A stretch of 64,000 nt of DNA from Armatimonadaceae bacterium. GTDB lineage: Bacteria > Armatimonadota > Armatimonadia > Armatimonadales > Armatimonadaceae. Under the pieces are notes generated by a model. It was not told where the DNA came from. It did not search any database and was given only the letters and a program-made list of their open reading frames with translations. The translations under genes and the position numbers were made by a program. The DNA is taken from contig JAUJOK010000027.1 of NCBI GenBank assembly GCA_030447685.1, forward strand, positions 1 to 64,000, written 5' to 3'. Shown piece by piece: positions 3,609 through 11,317 of this stretch. Within the stretch, counting starts at the first letter, position 1. Every line of letters begins with the position of its first letter.

Positions 3609-3721
3609 TGCAGTCACCTCTCGCGTATTATCCCCGTCAGACCCGTTCGTCGTAAAGCCGGACATTTCCTGCGCTTGAGTGCGCCAGGCTATGAACAGCC
3701 CGGCCTCGGGGGCGCTGTCGC

Positions 3722-3903: not shown

Positions 3904-5748
3904 ATGCTGACTAAAACCCTGATCTATTACGGGCGGGAGGAAGCGCCGCCGGAACCGCTGGCGCTGCGCGCGGGGCCGCTTTCGATGCGCTTCGACCCGG
4001 ACAACGCTTTTCTGCGCCAGGTGCGGCTCGGCGAGCGCGAGGTCGTGCGCGCTGTCTATGCCGCTGTCCGCGATGAAACATGGGGCACGGTGCCGCCGCG
4101 CGTTCACAACCTCGAAACAGACATCGCCCACGACCGATTCACGCTGTCGTTCGATGTGGAGTGCCGCAAGGGGGAGGTAGATTTCCTGTGGCGCGGGACG
4201 ATTCGCGGCGAGACGGATGGGACCGTGACCTACACCCTCGACGGCACGGCGCGCTCGACATTTCTGAGGAACCGTATCGGCTTCTGTGTCCTGCACCCCG
4301 TCCACGAATGCGCGGGCAATAAATGCGCTGTGGAGCATGCGAATGGAAACGTAAAACACAGCGCATTTCCCGCGCTTATTTCGCCCCATCAGCCTATTCA
4401 AGATATACGTGCCATTACCCATGAGGCCGCGCCGGGCGTCTCCGCCGAACTTCGCTTTTCCGGGGATGTGTTCGAGATGGAGGATCAGCGTAACTGGACG
4501 GATATGTCCTTCAAGACCTACTGCACACCACTTGCGTTGCCGATGCCGGTCCGCGTGCGCGAGGGAACGCGCATCACGCAGTCGGTGACTTTGACCCTCA
4601 ATGGCAGCCCCACCGCGCCTGCATCGCCGCGCGCTTCGGAAATTGAAATCACGCTTGGTGAAGCTCTCGGTCCACTTCCTGAGATCGGGCTGGGGACGGC
4701 GAGCCACGGGCAGAGACCGACAGAACGGGAGCGCGAGCGGCTTCGTGCACTGAACCTTTCGCATCTGCGGGTCGATCTCAAACTTCGAGATACGGACATG
4801 GCGGATACGCTGGCGTCGGCGGCTTCGGAGGCAGGATTGCTCGGTGTACCTCTGGAGGCGGCGCTGTTCGGCCATGATCTTCATGCGGAAATTCCGGCGC
4901 TGGCTCAGGCGATACATCAGTTCAAGCCATCGCTGCGCCGGTGGCTGCTGTACGAGGCAGGCCGCAAGTCTACCAGCGAGGCATTTGCGCAGCGGACGCG
5001 GCCCTATCTGTCGGCGCTGGCGCGTGACATTCCCCTCTACGGCGGCACCAACGAGAACTTTACCGAACTGAACCGGGAACGTCCCCCGACCGCCGCTCTG
5101 GACGGCGTCTGCTACTCAATCAATCCGCAGGTACACGCTTTCGACGACACATCCCTGGTGGAAAACCTGGAAGCGCAGGCGCAAACGGTGGCAAGCGCAC
5201 GCGCCTTTTGCGGCGGTTTACCGATTGCCGTCAGCCCGGTGACGCTGAAACCACGTGCGCGGCAGGGCGTGGAGGACGCGCGGCAAAGGTCACTGTTCGG
5301 GGCGGCGTGGACACTGGGAAGCGTGAAATATCTGGTGGAAAGCGGCGTCAGCAGCATCACGTATTACGAAACAACGGGCAGACTGGGGGTAATGGATACG
5401 AAAATGGTTTTTCCGCTATACCATGTGCTGGCTGATGTGGGCGAATTCGCGGGCGGCGTGGTGCGGCGAACTACCTCCAGTGACCCGCTGACGGTGGTGA
5501 GTTTGAGCGTCTTCAAGGAGGGGCGGACGCGCCTTATCCTGGCAAACTTGACCCCGCAGACACAGCGGGTTCGCCTCCGAAATTTTGGATCGATGGCCCG
5601 CCTGCGGCAACTGGACGAAACGAACGCCGAAGCGGCGATGACGACGCCGGAAGCGTTTCGCGCCACTTCCGCCGCCATTCCTCTTACCGACGGCGCGTGG
5701 GAGCTTCCGCCGTTCGCGGTCGCCTGTTATGAGGAGGAAGCGGCATGA
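3904..5748 (+). CDS. apnL: D-apionate lactonase (ApnL-like)
   Basis: A 614-residue cytoplasmic protein resembling the D-apionate lactonase family, which opens D-apionolactone to D-apionate after oxidation of D-apiose. Family-like stretches are the N-terminal ALRAGPLSMRFD, the WGT segment near residue 60, FPALISPHQP and MEDQRNWTDMSFKTY. The second half looks like a TIM-barrel glycoside-hydrolase-type domain with IPLYGGTNENFTELN. The start at 3904 marks the onset of conserved sequence; no strong ribosome site precedes it. It overlaps the next gene by ATGA and heads a five-gene operon whose other members are all apionate-pathway families. Recognition is from remembered family features, not a search. 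Confidence 0.75.
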   Translation: MLTKTLIYYGREEAPPEPLALRAGPLSMRFDPDNAFLRQVRLGEREVVRAVYAAVRDETWGTVPPRVHNLETDIAHDRFTLSFDVECRKGEVDFLWRGTIRGETDGTVTYTLDGTARSTFLRNRIGFCVLHPVHECAGNKCAVEHANGNVKHSAFPALISPHQPIQDIRAITHEAAPGVSAELRFSGDVFEMEDQRNWTDMSFKTYCTPLALPMPVRVREGTRITQSVTLTLNGSPTAPASPRASEIEITLGEALGPLPEIGLGTASHGQRPTERERERLRALNLSHLRVDLKLRDTDMADTLASAASEAGLLGVPLEAALFGHDLHAEIPALAQAIHQFKPSLRRWLLYEAGRKSTSEAFAQRTRPYLSALARDIPLYGGTNENFTELNRERPPTAALDGVCYSINPQVHAFDDTSLVENLEAQAQTVASARAFCGGLPIAVSPVTLKPRARQGVEDARQRSLFGAAWTLGSVKYLVESGVSSITYYETTGRLGVMDTKMVFPLYHVLADVGEFAGGVVRRTTSSDPLTVVSLSVFKEGRTRLILANLTPQTQRVRLRNFGSMARLRQLDETNAEAAMTTPEAFRATSAAIPLTDGAWELPPFAVACYEEEAA

Positions 5749-6767
5749 CGGAGACGCGTTTCGCTGTCATCGGAAGCGGCTTCTGGTCGCGGTTCCAACT
5801 GGCCGCGTGGCAGGAACTGGAAGGCGTCCGGTGTGTCGCTGTATGTGACCCGAACCGTGAGCGCGCCGAGGCTTTAGCTCGCGACCGGGGCGTGCCTGCC
5901 GTCTACGAGGATGTTGAAACGCTGCTGGACCGCGAATCGCTGGACTTAATAGATATAATCACGCCGGTGGAGACGCACAGTTCGCTGGTCCACCTTGCCG
6001 CCGCGCGCCGTTTGCCGGTGATCTGCCAGAAGCCGATGGCTCCCACGCTGGCGGAAGCGGAACGTATGGTCGCTGCGTGCCGCGACGCCGGGACGCCGTT
6101 CTTCATCCACGAAAACTGGCGCTGGCAGACGCCCATCCGCGCGCTGGCGAAAATCCTCGCTGACGGGCGAATCGGGCACCCGTTTCGCGCCCGAATCCAG
6201 TTCTCGTGCAGCTTCCCGGTTTTCGATAACCAGCCTTTTTTGAAAGAGCTGGAGCAGTTTATTCTGACCGACATCGGCAGTCATATTCTGGACACGGCGC
6301 GCTTCCTGTTCGGCGAGGCGGAAAGCTTGTCTTGCCGGACGCATCGTATCCATCAGGACATCAAAGGCGAGGACGTGGCGACGGTGATGATGACCATGCG
6401 CCGCCGCCAAGAGGACGCCGCGCCGACCACGGTCGTTTGCGATATGAGCTACGCGAGCCGCCTGGAAAATGAGCGGTTCCCGCAGACCTTTTTCCTGGTC
6501 GAAGGCGTAAAAGGCTCGGTGAAACTTGGCAGCGATTACTGGCTGCGTGTCACCACCGAGGCGGGCACCCACTCGTGGCGCTGCCCTCCTCCCCGCTATG
6601 CCTGGGCCGACCCGGAGTACGACGTCGTCCACGCGAGCGGCGTTCCCTGTAATGCCGATCTGCTGCGTGCGCTCCAAACCGGTCAGCACGCCGAAACCCG
6701 CGCGGAAGATAATCTGGAAACGGTACGGCTGGTTTTCGGGGCATATGATTCGGCGGAGAAGTTATGA
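5745..6767 (+). CDS. Gfo/Idh/MocA oxidoreductase, likely D-apiose dehydrogenase
   Basis: A 340-residue NAD(P)-dependent sugar dehydrogenase. The N-terminal Rossmann fold has VIGSGFWS at residues 8-14. The family catalytic motif appears as CQKPMAP with Lys96 in place of the more usual EKP, followed by ENWRWQ and DIGSHILDTARF. Start and stop codons overlap both neighbours by ATGA, implying tight coupling. In known D-apiose pathways a Gfo/Idh/MocA enzyme (ApsD) oxidises D-apiose to apionolactone, the substrate of the upstream lactonase. That role is inferred from context, since the superfamily covers many sugars. Confidence 0.85.
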   Translation: MTETRFAVIGSGFWSRFQLAAWQELEGVRCVAVCDPNRERAEALARDRGVPAVYEDVETLLDRESLDLIDIITPVETHSSLVHLAAARRLPVICQKPMAPTLAEAERMVAACRDAGTPFFIHENWRWQTPIRALAKILADGRIGHPFRARIQFSCSFPVFDNQPFLKELEQFILTDIGSHILDTARFLFGEAESLSCRTHRIHQDIKGEDVATVMMTMRRRQEDAAPTTVVCDMSYASRLENERFPQTFFLVEGVKGSVKLGSDYWLRVTTEAGTHSWRCPPPRYAWADPEYDVVHASGVPCNADLLRALQTGQHAETRAEDNLETVRLVFGAYDSAEKL

Positions 6768-8035
6768 GCGATTATATTCGAGCCACCTATCTTATTGAAA
6801 CGCCGCATCCGGTCGGGCAGGCCGCCGAGGCGCTGGCGGGCGAGCAGTCCTCCGGGACATTCGTTGCCGTGCCGGGAGAAACGGCGGAACTGCGCGAACG
6901 GCACCGTGCCCGTGTTGAGCGCATTACCGAACTGGAAACGGCGGATACGCCAAGCCTGCCGGGATCACGCCCGCCCAGAGGAACAGCAGAAACGTCGCCG
7001 CGCTACCACCGGGCGGAAATTGAGGTTGCCTTCCCGCTGGAAAATGTCGGAACCAACCTGCCGACGCTGTTTGCCACGGTCGCCGGTAATCTGTTCGAAC
7101 TGAGCGAGTTTTCCGGGCTGAAGCTGCTGGATATAGACCTGCCGCCCGCGTTTGCGGATGCTTATCCCGGCCCGCAATTCGGTATCGCGGGGACACGCAG
7201 ACTGGCTGGAGTGTACGAGCGGCCCATTATCGGAACCATCGTCAAGCCCAGCGTCGGGCTGACGCCGGAGCAGACGGCAGCCCTCGCCCGCGATCTGGCC
7301 GAGGCGGACATTGATTTCATTAAAGACGACGAGCTGATGGCCGACCCGCCCCACTCGCCCCTGAAAGAGCGTGTGAGCCAGGTAATGCGCGTGCTGAACG
7401 AGGTCGCCGACCGCAAAGGCAAAAAGGTGATGTATGCCGTGAACATCACCGACGAGATGGACGCGATGCTGCGTCACCATGATACGGTGGTGGAGGCGGG
7501 CGGTACCTGTGTCATGGTCAGCATCAACAGTGTCGGCCTGGTCGGCGTCTCGCACCTGCGGAATCGCTGTTCCCTCCCCATCCACGGCCACCGCAACGGC
7601 TGGGGGATGCTTACCCGGCATCCGCAGCTTGGCATCGCCTTCTCCGCGTACCAGAAGCTGTGGCGATTGGCAGGCGTCGATCATCTGCATGTGAACGGTC
7701 TGCAAAACAAGTTCTGGGAGCCGGACGACTCCGTGGTGCGCTCGATTCAAGCCTGCCTCACGCCACTGCTGGGCGGCTACCCGATTATGCCGGTGGTCTC
7801 GTCCGGCCAATGGGGCGGCCAGGCTCCCGACACCTACCGGCGCACGCAGACCGTGGATTTGATGTATGTCGCGGGCGGCGGCATCATGGCGCATCCCGGC
7901 GGCCCGGCGGCGGGTGTCACGGCGCTGCGGCAGGCGTGGGAAGCGGCGGTATCCGGCGTTGCGCTGGAGCAGTTCGCCCAGGAGCACACGGAACTGCGAC
8001 AGACACTGGAAAAGTTCGGAGGAGGCAGGCGATGA
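6764..8035 (+). CDS. RuBisCO-like protein (form IV), 3-oxo-isoapionate-4-phosphate decarboxylase or transcarboxylase candidate
   Basis: A 423-residue RuBisCO large-subunit homologue. GTIVKPSVGL (157-166) keeps the first catalytic Lys (161) of the RuBisCO GTxxKPKxGL motif but has Ser where the second Lys sits. The metal and carbamate motif is intact as FIKDDE (185-190; Lys187, Asp188, Glu190). HGHRNGWG (274-281) matches the His/Arg phosphate-binding region. The loop-6 position reads VVSSGQWGGQ (344-352) and lacks the CO2-addressing Lys of true RuBisCO. This fits a non-CO2-fixing form IV enzyme. Beside a 3-oxo-isoapionate kinase-type gene it is best read as OiaX (decarboxylase) or OiaT (transcarboxylase/hydrolase); the sequence alone does not separate them. 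It overlaps both neighbours by ATGA. Confidence 0.85.
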   Translation: MSDYIRATYLIETPHPVGQAAEALAGEQSSGTFVAVPGETAELRERHRARVERITELETADTPSLPGSRPPRGTAETSPRYHRAEIEVAFPLENVGTNLPTLFATVAGNLFELSEFSGLKLLDIDLPPAFADAYPGPQFGIAGTRRLAGVYERPIIGTIVKPSVGLTPEQTAALARDLAEADIDFIKDDELMADPPHSPLKERVSQVMRVLNEVADRKGKKVMYAVNITDEMDAMLRHHDTVVEAGGTCVMVSINSVGLVGVSHLRNRCSLPIHGHRNGWGMLTRHPQLGIAFSAYQKLWRLAGVDHLHVNGLQNKFWEPDDSVVRSIQACLTPLLGGYPIMPVVSSGQWGGQAPDTYRRTQTVDLMYVAGGGIMAHPGGPAAGVTALRQAWEAAVSGVALEQFAQEHTELRQTLEKFGGGRR

Positions 8036-9393
8036 GCACGGGTCTCCGCCTGACCTTCTACGGCGACGACTTCACCGGTTCGACGGATGTGATGGAGGCG
8101 CTGGCGCGGGCGGGACTGCCGACCGTGCTGTTCCTGCGGCCTCCGACGCCCGATGATCTGGAACGCTTTCCCGGCATCGGCGCGCTGGGCGTGGCGGGAG
8201 TCAGCCGGTCGCTGCCGACCGAGGCGATGGAGGACGAGCTTCGTCCCGTCTTTGAGGCGTTTCGGGTGCTGGGTGCGCCTCTCGTTCACTACAAGGTCTG
8301 TTCAACATTCGATTCGTCCCCGGAAGTCGGCAGCATCGGGCGAGCGATAGAGATCGGTCAGGAAGTGTTCCGGTCGCCGTTTGTGCCGCTGCTCGTCGGT
8401 GCGCCGGTGCTGAGGCGCTACTGTGTATTCGGAAATTTATTCGCCCGCTCCGGGCCGGAGTCGGAACCGTTCCGGCTGGACCGCCACCCGACCATGCGCC
8501 GTCACCCGACCACGCCGATGACGGAAAGCGACCTGCGGCTTCATTTGGCACAGCAGACGGCGAAAAGCATCGGCCTGCTGGATATTTTAAGCATGGCGAG
8601 CGCGGACGCCGCCGCGCGCCTCGATACGCTGCTGTCGTCCGGCCCGGAAGTCGTCCTTTTCGACGTGCTGTACGACGAGCACCTGCCGACTATCGGACGC
8701 CTGATCGCACAGCGGGCAGCGGGTGATGTGTCGTTATTTGCGGTGGGTTCGTCGGGCGTGGAGTATGCGCTGACCGCCCACTGGCGTGCCGCCGGCCTGT
8801 TACCCCTGGAGCCGCCGGTTTTCACGGCGAAACCGGTGGATCAAATCGCCGTAGTATCAGGAAGCTGCTCGCCGGTAACGGAGCGGCAGATCGCCCGGGC
8901 TTTACAAGACGGCTTTGCGGAGGTACCGCTGCGCCCGGAGGGTCTGGTGGATAGCCGGGAGGCCGCCGGGGAATGCGAGGATGCCGTTCGCCGGGCGCGG
9001 GAGATTCTGGCAACGGGGCGAAGCGTTCTTCTGCATACCAGCCGGGGGCCGGACGATCCGCGTATCGACGCCACCCGGCAGCGCATCGCGGAGGAAAAAA
9101 GCACAGCGGGAACGGCGGCGCTGCTGGGCGAGGCGATGGGACGCATATTGCGCGACGTTCTGACGCAGACGGGGCTGCGCCGCGCTGCCGTCACCGGCGG
9201 CGACACCTCCAGCTATGTGGCGCGCGCCTTGGGCGTGGAGGCGCTGGAGATGGCCGCCCCGATGGCTCCCGGTTCGCCGCTGTGCCGCATCCATGCCGCC
9301 GGGAAGATAGACGGAACGGAGATCGTCTTCAAGGGCGGGCAGGTCGGCAAGATCGACTTTTTCAACCATGTTCTGAGCGGCAATCAGCCATAG
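8032..9393 (+). CDS. oiaK: Four-carbon acid sugar kinase family, 3-oxo-isoapionate kinase candidate
   Basis: A 453-residue kinase of the DUF1537/four-carbon acid sugar kinase family. YGDDFTGSTD at 10-19 is the family's N-terminal substrate motif, and the C-terminal nucleotide-binding part has AVTGGDTSSYVARAL and ends with FKGGQVGKIDFF. The ATG at 8032 follows GGAGGAGG and overlaps the stop of the RuBisCO-like gene. Related kinases phosphorylate sugar acids such as erythronate, tetronates and 3-oxo-isoapionate. Coupling to a RuBisCO-like enzyme and ApnO-type dehydrogenase points to OiaK, which would make the RuBisCO-like enzyme's phosphorylated substrate. Confidence 0.85.
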   Translation: MSTGLRLTFYGDDFTGSTDVMEALARAGLPTVLFLRPPTPDDLERFPGIGALGVAGVSRSLPTEAMEDELRPVFEAFRVLGAPLVHYKVCSTFDSSPEVGSIGRAIEIGQEVFRSPFVPLLVGAPVLRRYCVFGNLFARSGPESEPFRLDRHPTMRRHPTTPMTESDLRLHLAQQTAKSIGLLDILSMASADAAARLDTLLSSGPEVVLFDVLYDEHLPTIGRLIAQRAAGDVSLFAVGSSGVEYALTAHWRAAGLLPLEPPVFTAKPVDQIAVVSGSCSPVTERQIARALQDGFAEVPLRPEGLVDSREAAGECEDAVRRAREILATGRSVLLHTSRGPDDPRIDATRQRIAEEKSTAGTAALLGEAMGRILRDVLTQTGLRRAAVTGGDTSSYVARALGVEALEMAAPMAPGSPLCRIHAAGKIDGTEIVFKGGQVGKIDFFNHVLSGNQP

Positions 9394-9418
9394 CCGCAAT
9401 GAAAGGAAACTCCAAGCG

Positions 9419-10261
9419 ATGACAACCATTGCGCTGTTCGGCGCGGGCGGAAATATGGGCACCCGCCTGACGGGGACGCTGGCAAAGCACTCGGAATACC
9501 GCCTATTGTATGTGGAGGCGGGCGAGGCGGGTCAGGCGAAACTGCGCGAGCGAGGCCACGAACCGACGCCGCGTGACGAGGCGCTTCGCCAGGCGGACGT
9601 GATCATCCTGGCCGTGCCCGACAAACTCATCAAGACCGTGGCGACGGATATCGTGCCGGACGTAAAAAGCGGCGCGATTGTGATCTGCCTGGACCCCGCC
9701 GCGCCCTTCGCGAAGCACCTGCCCGAGCGCGCCGACATCTCCTACTTCATCACCCACCCCGCCCACCCGCCGGTCTTCAACGACGAGACGGACCCGGAGG
9801 AGCGGCGCGACTTCTTCGGCAGCGGCAAGGCGAAACAGAGCATCGTCAGTGCGCTGATGCAGGGGCCGGAAGAGGATTACGCGAAGGGGGAGGCGATTGC
9901 CAGCGCGATGTTCGGCCCGATTCTGCGCTCGCATCGTGTCACCGTGGAGCAGATGGTGATTCTGGAACCGGCGCTTTCGGAAACCGTTGCGGCAACCTGC
10001 GTTACCATCATGCGCGAGGCGATGGACGAGGCGATTCGCCGGGGCGTCCCGCCGGAGGCTGCGCGCGATTTCCTGCTCGGTCATATCAACATCCCGCTGG
10101 CGATAGTGTTCAACGAGATCGAATGGGATTTTTCCGCGGGAGCGAAAAAAGCCATTGAGGAGGCAAAGAAGACCATCTTCCAGCCGGACTGGAAGAAGGT
10201 CTTCGAGTGGGAAAACATCCAGGAAAGCGTCGGCAAGATTACCGGCGAGATTCCTTCATAG
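9419..10261 (+). CDS. apnO: D-apionate oxidoisomerase (ApnO-like), phosphogluconate dehydrogenase superfamily
   Basis: A 280-residue NAD-binding dehydrogenase. GAGGNMG (8-14) is the dinucleotide loop; an all-helical C-terminal domain carries the substrate site. The HPAHPPVFNDE segment (113-123) is typical of the semialdehyde and apionate oxidoisomerase subgroup. ApnO oxidises D-apionate and isomerises it to 3-oxo-isoapionate, feeding the kinase encoded 25 bp upstream. It closes the operon; a palindromic repeat follows before a convergent gene. Confidence 0.8.
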   Translation: MTTIALFGAGGNMGTRLTGTLAKHSEYRLLYVEAGEAGQAKLRERGHEPTPRDEALRQADVIILAVPDKLIKTVATDIVPDVKSGAIVICLDPAAPFAKHLPERADISYFITHPAHPPVFNDETDPEERRDFFGSGKAKQSIVSALMQGPEEDYAKGEAIASAMFGPILRSHRVTVEQMVILEPALSETVAATCVTIMREAMDEAIRRGVPPEAARDFLLGHINIPLAIVFNEIEWDFSAGAKKAIEEAKKTIFQPDWKKVFEWENIQESVGKITGEIPS

Positions 10262-10262
10262 A

Positions 10263-10313
10263 GCCTCTCCCCCCGGCCCCTTTCCTTTAGGAGAGGGGGC
10301 AGGGGCGAGAGGC
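10263..10313. repeat. Dispersed C-rich palindromic repeat
   Basis: An imperfect hairpin with outer arms GCCTCTC and GAGAGGC and C-rich/G-rich interiors. It lies between the converging apionate operon and the isomerase gene, and resembles the copies at 1549-1614 and 56892-56941. It may help end transcription here, but there is no T-run. Confidence 0.55.
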
Positions 10314-10315
10314 CC

Positions 10316-11317
10316 TTAGTCCCGCGCCCAGAACATCGGGCCAGGCTGCTCCTTGACGATAGCCTCGTTCAGCACGTCCAGGGCCTTGTGCAGCCCCTCT
10401 TTCGTGGACAGCAGGCTGTCCTCATGCTCGATAGACAACACGTAATCATAGCCGATCATACGCAGGTTGGAAACCAAATCTTTCCACCAGGTCGCGTCGT
10501 GGCCGTAGCCTACCGAGCGGAAGACCCAGGCGCGCTCCAGAACGTCGCCATACGATTTCGTATCGAGCGTGCCGTTGACGGCGGCGTTCAGCGGGTCAAT
10601 GCGCGTGTCTTTGGCATGCGCGTGGAAAACTGCGCCCGCTTCGCCCAGGGCGCGCACCGCCGTCAGCGGATCGATGCCCTGCCACCAGAAGTGCGACGGG
10701 TCGAAGTTACAGCCGATGTTGTCTCCGGCGGCTTTGCGAAGGCGCAGCAGCGTGTCCGGATTGTAGACCAGGAAGCCAGGGTGCGCCTCGATGGCGAACT
10801 TCGTACCGTGCGCCTTCAGGAACTTGTTCTGCGCCCGCCAGTATTTCGCCGCCACCTTCCATTGATAGTCCAGAATGTCCCGGAACTCGTCCGGCCACGC
10901 ACACGTCACCCAGTTCGGGTTTTTCGCGCGCGAACTGTCGCCGGGGCAGCCGGAAAAGCCGTTCACTGTCGCCTGCGGCATGATGCCGTCCCCGTGCAGC
11001 TTCTCAGCCAGCAGCACGGCATTGATGAACGCCTCGTGGTGCTCCTGCGCGATCTGCTTGTTCGGGTGCAGCGGGTTTCCGTGCACCGAGATGGCCGAGA
11101 TAATCAGGTTGCGGGACTGCGCCGCGTTTACCAACTTCTGCCGCGCCTTGTCGTCCTTGATCAGCTTTTCAATGCCCCCGAAGTTATCCAGGTGCGCCGA
11201 GCCGGGATAGGCCCCGCCTCCCAGTTCCACTGATTCTATGCCCGCCTGCTGAATATAGTCCAGCGCCTCTTCAATGGGCCGGTCATGAAACAATGCCGTA
11301 AAGATACCGATCTTCAT
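10316..11317 (-). CDS. Xylose isomerase-like TIM-barrel sugar isomerase/epimerase
   Basis: A 333-residue member of the sugar phosphate isomerase/epimerase superfamily. Putative metal ligands sit where the family has them: VELGGGAYPG near residue 30, KFAIEAHPG near 172, NFDPSHF, HAKDTR and SIEHED. The ATG at 11317 follows AAGGACG. It converges on the apionate operon, so it is probably separately controlled. One known apionate route uses a xylose-isomerase-family decarboxylase (OiaC), but this sequence looks like the common, functionally unassigned branch of the superfamily, so the substrate is left open. Confidence 0.8.
   Translation of the reverse strand: MKIGIFTALFHDRPIEEALDYIQQAGIESVELGGGAYPGSAHLDNFGGIEKLIKDDKARQKLVNAAQSRNLIISAISVHGNPLHPNKQIAQEHHEAFINAVLLAEKLHGDGIMPQATVNGFSGCPGDSSRAKNPNWVTCAWPDEFRDILDYQWKVAAKYWRAQNKFLKAHGTKFAIEAHPGFLVYNPDTLLRLRKAAGDNIGCNFDPSHFWWQGIDPLTAVRALGEAGAVFHAHAKDTRIDPLNAAVNGTLDTKSYGDVLERAWVFRSVGYGHDATWWKDLVSNLRMIGYDYVLSIEHEDSLLSTKEGLHKALDVLNEAIVKEQPGPMFWARD

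Follow-up and report, generated by a model that had tools for sequence, protein, structure and literature searches.

The window analysed here, a 64,000-nucleotide stretch of contig JAUJOK010000027.1 from an Armatimonadaceae bacterium, carries at 3904–10261 on the + strand five intact open reading frames arranged head to tail and all open, in the order ApnL–ApsD–RLP–OiaK–ApnO, where RLP denotes a RuBisCO-like protein. We conclude that this operon very probably serves the oxidative catabolism of D-apiose and D-apionate. Its RLP, whose best match is to the OiaX decarboxylase, is probably a different enzyme; judged from its residues, and given an apionate pathway, it is likely to be of the transcarboxylase/hydrolase (OiaT-like) type. 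Taken jointly, a D-apiose operon with an OiaT-type RLP is the reading that we favour, with rather less assurance than either of its parts. The apionate pathway itself is already known and widespread. D-apiose is a branched pentose of plant cell walls, where it occurs in rhamnogalacturonan II (RG-II). We infer the substrates, products and RLP reaction as follows. ApsD would convert D-apiose to its lactone, ApnL would open the ring to give D-apionate, ApnO would turn this into 3-oxo-isoapionate and OiaK would phosphorylate the latter at O4. An OiaT-type RLP would decarboxylate 3-oxo-isoapionate 4-phosphate, then recarboxylate and hydrolyse in the fashion of RuBisCO, and its products, 3-phosphoglycerate and glycolate, would pass to glycolysis and glycolate oxidation. 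Decarboxylation and transcarboxylation/hydrolysis of this phosphate are both reported for characterised RLPs (PMC6302742, citing Carter et al. 2018).

We assigned the five products to families by model matches, conserved positions and gene context (Table 1). Conserved positions, defined as those at least 97% identical in alignments with 22–102 homologues per protein, were all retained in ApnL (36/36), OiaK (53/53), ApnO (40/40) and ApsD. Pfam and PDB searches gave no match for ApnL, which we place in its family by these positions and by its linkage to ApsD and ApnO. ApnO combines its conserved positions with a PGDH_C domain and is 53–56% identical to the ApnO of annotated OiaX/ApnL loci. No specific model in the libraries scanned matched ApsD, and the protein was recognised only as a Gfo/Idh/MocA oxidoreductase; we name it from that fold and its apionate-cluster setting. 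Its identity to the corresponding neighbour of ApnL/ApnO is 60–62% in loci from Verrucomicrobia, Chloroflexi and Planctomycetes and 42% in Microvirga. The RLP scored 551 bits with the OiaX model against 158–198 bits with MtnW-type models, and type III RuBisCO scored 296 bits lower; for OiaK the scores were 512 bits with its own model, 189 with OtnK and 84 with DtnK. The sequence-only reading of this DNA had proposed five apionate-route genes in a row and had named kinship with tetronate, erythronate or methionine-salvage enzymes as grounds for dropping the idea. The scores show no such kinship, and both the row of genes and the family of each were confirmed.

We compared 112 RLPs at the catalytic positions of RuBisCO, numbered from motifs and from alignment to solved RuBisCO. 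K175, K201, D203, E204, H294, R295, K334 and S379 were retained throughout. At E60/T65/N123/H327, the annotated OiaX clade, six RLPs in all, has D/T/G/Q without exception, whereas 104 of the 106 RLPs outside that clade, the window protein among them, read E/T/N/H. In its own numbering the window RLP retains K161, K187, D189, E190, H276 and K316 together with E27, T32, N109 and H309; it thus carries E27/N109/H309 in place of the OiaX-type D/G/Q signature, and has S, W and Q at RuBisCO K177, H298 and G381. In RuBisCO, E60, N123 and H327 serve carboxylation and hydration, and a purely decarboxylating enzyme could therefore dispense with them. A different picture was seen in G010, a genome of the same family, whose RLP (locus L027, contig CADCTO010000094.1, ~7878–9143) has L, G and S for E60, T65 and N123 and reads AGAAT in the glycine run near G403/G404. 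This genome has no strong GlcD match (115 bits), and its RLP may have an altered activity or be decaying.

The gene inventory of the window genome, which is 87.6% complete, bears on the same choice. It encodes one triose-phosphate isomerase (TPI) and no RpiB, and so falls short of the pair of isomerases on which the decarboxylase branch depends, the erythrulose-phosphate isomerases LerI and EryI. Among the RLP-bearing Armatimonadota, seven of eight lack RpiB and all eight have a single TPI. By comparison, in R. phaseoli the OiaX locus encodes a D-erythrulose-4-phosphate isomerase that exceeds its cut-off, along with a TPI homologue. The window genome also encodes a GlcD-like subunit of glycolate oxidase (487 bits). 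We favour the OiaT type because the E/N/H residues are kept and because the genome lacks the isomerases of the decarboxylase branch. The operon had been described as complete. This is correct to 3-phosphoglycerate and glycolate if the RLP is a transcarboxylase/hydrolase, as the residues favour; if it is a decarboxylase, recognisable follow-on isomerases are missing from the genome.

D-apiose is the best-supported substrate, because three other Armatimonadota operons (in genomes G038, G040 and G053) include a gene for a GH140-type apiosidase. In the window genome an apiosidase homologue with 66% identity lies on a different contig (L059, G000:C113:712-2022), with one Gfo/Idh/MocA gene and three AP_endonuc_2 genes lying within 10 kb of it. 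Apiosidase-type genes occur in 84 of 291 Armatimonadota genomes, and were found in seven of the eight that bear the RLP compared with 77 of the other 283 (Fisher p 0.0008, with no correction for kinship).

One alternative keeps the pathway but makes the RLP a true OiaX decarboxylase, forming L-erythrulose 1-phosphate that unlinked isomerases would handle. OiaX is the best NCBIfam match of the RLP, and annotated OiaX proteins fall in the same half of the RLP tree as the window protein. The score is, however, about 150 bits short of the OiaX equivalog cut-off (551 against 700 bits), three RuBisCO residues altered in every annotated OiaX are kept, and the isomerase inventory fits poorly; we regard a decarboxylase here as unlikely. 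Less probable still is a different branched sugar acid as the substrate, for example D-hamamelonate or a non-apiose sugar of RG-II. About 66 of the 112 RLP loci have neither ApnO nor ApnL; the kinase is present in nearly all of these, and several lie next to short-chain dehydrogenases. An RLP-containing D-hamamelose pathway has been reported from Ochrobactrum (cited in PMC8914248). Scores below cut-off, as found for each window protein with a pathway model, would also suit another substrate. By contrast, ApnL and ApnO are both present in the window, with every conserved position of each retained, and close relatives carry the apiosidase within the operon. We defined a D-hamamelose locus as an RLP–kinase pair with short-chain dehydrogenases and without ApnO or ApnL; the window operon contains no such dehydrogenase. 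A role elsewhere in the RuBisCO family, as a methionine-salvage enolase or in true carboxylation, would accord with the retention of most RuBisCO catalytic residues, but methionine-salvage models score at least 350 bits under OiaX, type III RuBisCO is likewise far lower, the gene is linked to apionate genes and K177, H298 and G381 are replaced. We consider such a role highly improbable.

Several observations weigh against a D-apiose operon with an OiaT-type RLP. None of the three proteins that have an apionate-pathway model reached its equivalog cut-off (ApnL, 341 against 750 bits for NF049900; OiaK, 512 against 700 for NF042436; and the RLP, scored with NF042437, as above), and their names therefore lean on context too; the kinase of an annotated OiaX locus is also low with NF042436 (469 bits). 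The E/N/H rule was drawn from annotated OiaX against other RLPs, in a comparison set that holds no characterised OiaT. The half of the RLP tree that contains the window and OiaX proteins also holds a large clade from loci without Apn genes, and the tree separates the window protein from plasmid loci whose ApnL exceeds the equivalog cut-off; its inner forks are weak and its root is arbitrary. Of the OiaX loci examined, a single one has LerI/EryI adjacent, and absences from an incomplete genome are provisional. GlcD-like proteins are common, so that their presence merely permits a glycolate route, and no GlcE or GlcF partner was seen adjoining the GlcD-like gene. In the window genome the apiosidase gene lies apart from the operon.

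The sequence-only reading held that the pathway is known from a few phyla. This proved too narrow, as species genomes scanned with the RLP alignment yielded 80 loci, the kinase adjoining the RLP in nearly all, and the pair occurs in at least 10 phyla, haloarchaea included. RLP loci were found in Latescibacterota, Verrucomicrobiota, Armatimonadota, Gemmatimonadota, Bacteroidota, Balneolota, Planctomycetota, Chloroflexota, Acidobacteriota, Pseudomonadota, Bacillota and haloarchaea. Among the loci fetched, 13 distinct ones besides that of the window have all five genes together (L068 and L027 being one and the same contig, and ApnL being split in two at the G053 locus). With the gene order shuffled, the five-gene cluster is found in Verrucomicrobiota, Chloroflexota, Planctomycetota, Bacteroidota, Pseudomonadota and other Armatimonadota, and it includes plasmid loci with ApnL above the equivalog cut-off from Microvirga (899 bits) and Ensifer (816 bits). 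An Armatimonadota host, which had also been proposed, was confirmed; the RLP was detected at full strength in 8 of the 291 genomes of this phylum. The window's gene order, thought to be its own, is shared by G010.

Among known systems, the OiaT pathway of Xanthobacter autotrophicus has the same predicted set of ApsD, ApnL, ApnO, OiaK and RLP as the window and likewise needs no erythrulose-phosphate isomerases (Carter et al. 2018, as cited in PMC6302742); the window differs in gene order, in its tight overlaps and in having no linked transporter. The OiaX pathway, of the Agrobacterium radiobacter K84 type and found in rhizobial loci such as L157, shares with the window ApnO, OiaK and an RLP at 47–53% identity. 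Unlike the window, OiaX loci have D/G/Q for RuBisCO E60/N123/H327 and mostly a NanR regulator, and L157 adds a D-ribose-type ABC transporter and LerI/EryI-like isomerases. Closer to hand, the Armatimonadota genomes G010, G038, G040, G041 and G053 have OiaK, RLP and ApnO in one run, as in the window. They differ from it in having a regulator gene of GntR/FCD type upstream (G038, G040 and G041), in the apiosidase gene inside the operon (G038, G040 and G053) or in an RLP without the key residues (G010).

RLP–kinase loci without Apn genes, possibly of a hamamelose type and known here from Rhizobium, Agrobacterium and Bacteroidota, share the RLP and DUF1537 kinase pair with the window, but have no ApnO or ApnL and in some cases carry short-chain dehydrogenases. 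Some of these loci (within L022–L163) have GH28, GH78 or short-chain dehydrogenase genes around them, which suggests that the pair serves further branched-sugar pathways, for hamamelose or other RG-II sugars. On a Croceibacterium plasmid (L026), an RLP–kinase pair without Apn genes lies amid beta-galactosidase, alpha-L-fucosidase, arabinofuranosidase and sialidase-family genes and a TonB receptor, a cluster resembling an RG-II utilisation locus. Another Armatimonadota lineage (L062, G002:C21, 6715–11399) has ApnL, ApnO and ApsD, and a GH140 gene close by, but lacks the RLP and the kinase; beside its ApnL lies an isomerase-like gene, matched by no NCBIfam model, that is a candidate direct decarboxylase (OiaC-like).

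Within the window operon, ATGA overlaps couple the first four genes. Four genes had been described as joined in this way, which is correct as a count of genes; the overlaps number three (at 5745, 6764 and 8032), and ApnO stands apart, its start lying 25 nt downstream of the OiaK stop codon (TAG, 9391–9393). An alternative GTG start for ApnL at 3679 is possible, but the ATG at 3904 suits the family model, whose match begins at residue 7. As had been noted, no transporter or regulator adjoins the operon. Upstream, on the opposite strand, lies a RecQ-like helicase gene, named from its sequence with no search made, and downstream is a convergent sugar-isomerase-like gene. The latter encodes a xylose-isomerase-like TIM barrel; we considered adding it to the pathway as a sixth gene and rejected this, since no homologue at E<1e-10 was found in any other apionate locus. 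A hairpin between the convergent genes is a possible transcript end; it has no T-run and was not called by the terminator scan. Scans for sigma-70 promoters and intrinsic terminators gave only chance-level matches.

Table 1. Operon genes and downstream features, in window coordinates
Feature	Position	Strand	Evidence
ApnL-like D-apionate lactonase, 614 aa	3904..5748	+	NCBIfam NF049900 E=1e-101, 341 bits
ApsD-like D-apiose dehydrogenase (Gfo/Idh/MocA family), 340 aa	5745..6767	+	Pfam PF01408/PF22725
RuBisCO-like protein, OiaX/OiaT superfamily, 423 aa	6764..8035	+	NF042437 OiaX 551 bits, 2e-165; PDB 3nwr 1e-132
OiaK-like 3-oxo-isoapionate kinase (DUF1537 fold), 453 aa	8032..9393	+	NF042436 512 bits, 1e-153; Pfam SBD_N + NBD_C
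ApnO-like D-apionate oxidoisomerase, 280 aa	9419..10261	+	Pfam PGDH_C 5e-62; PDB 5t57 7e-98
Hairpin after ApnO, between convergent genes	10255–10320	+	-43.7 kcal/mol vs shuffles -27.7 +/- 3.5, z -4.6
Sugar-isomerase-like gene	10316–11317	-	Best PDB match of product 2zds, 1e-16

These results extend D-apiose catabolism to Armatimonadota and show the wide occurrence of the RLP–kinase pair. Whether E60, N123 and H327 are kept or changed may separate transcarboxylase/hydrolase RLPs from decarboxylases, a testable sequence rule that bears on the divergence of RuBisCO chemistry and on gene naming. More tentatively, the RLPs that keep E/N/H might form a broad and mostly uncharacterised set, in at least 10 phyla including archaea, that performs RuBisCO-like carboxylation and C–C hydrolysis on branched sugar-acid phosphates. 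The OiaX decarboxylases would then be a side branch derived by loss of these residues, and best-hit annotation as OiaX would misname most of the set.

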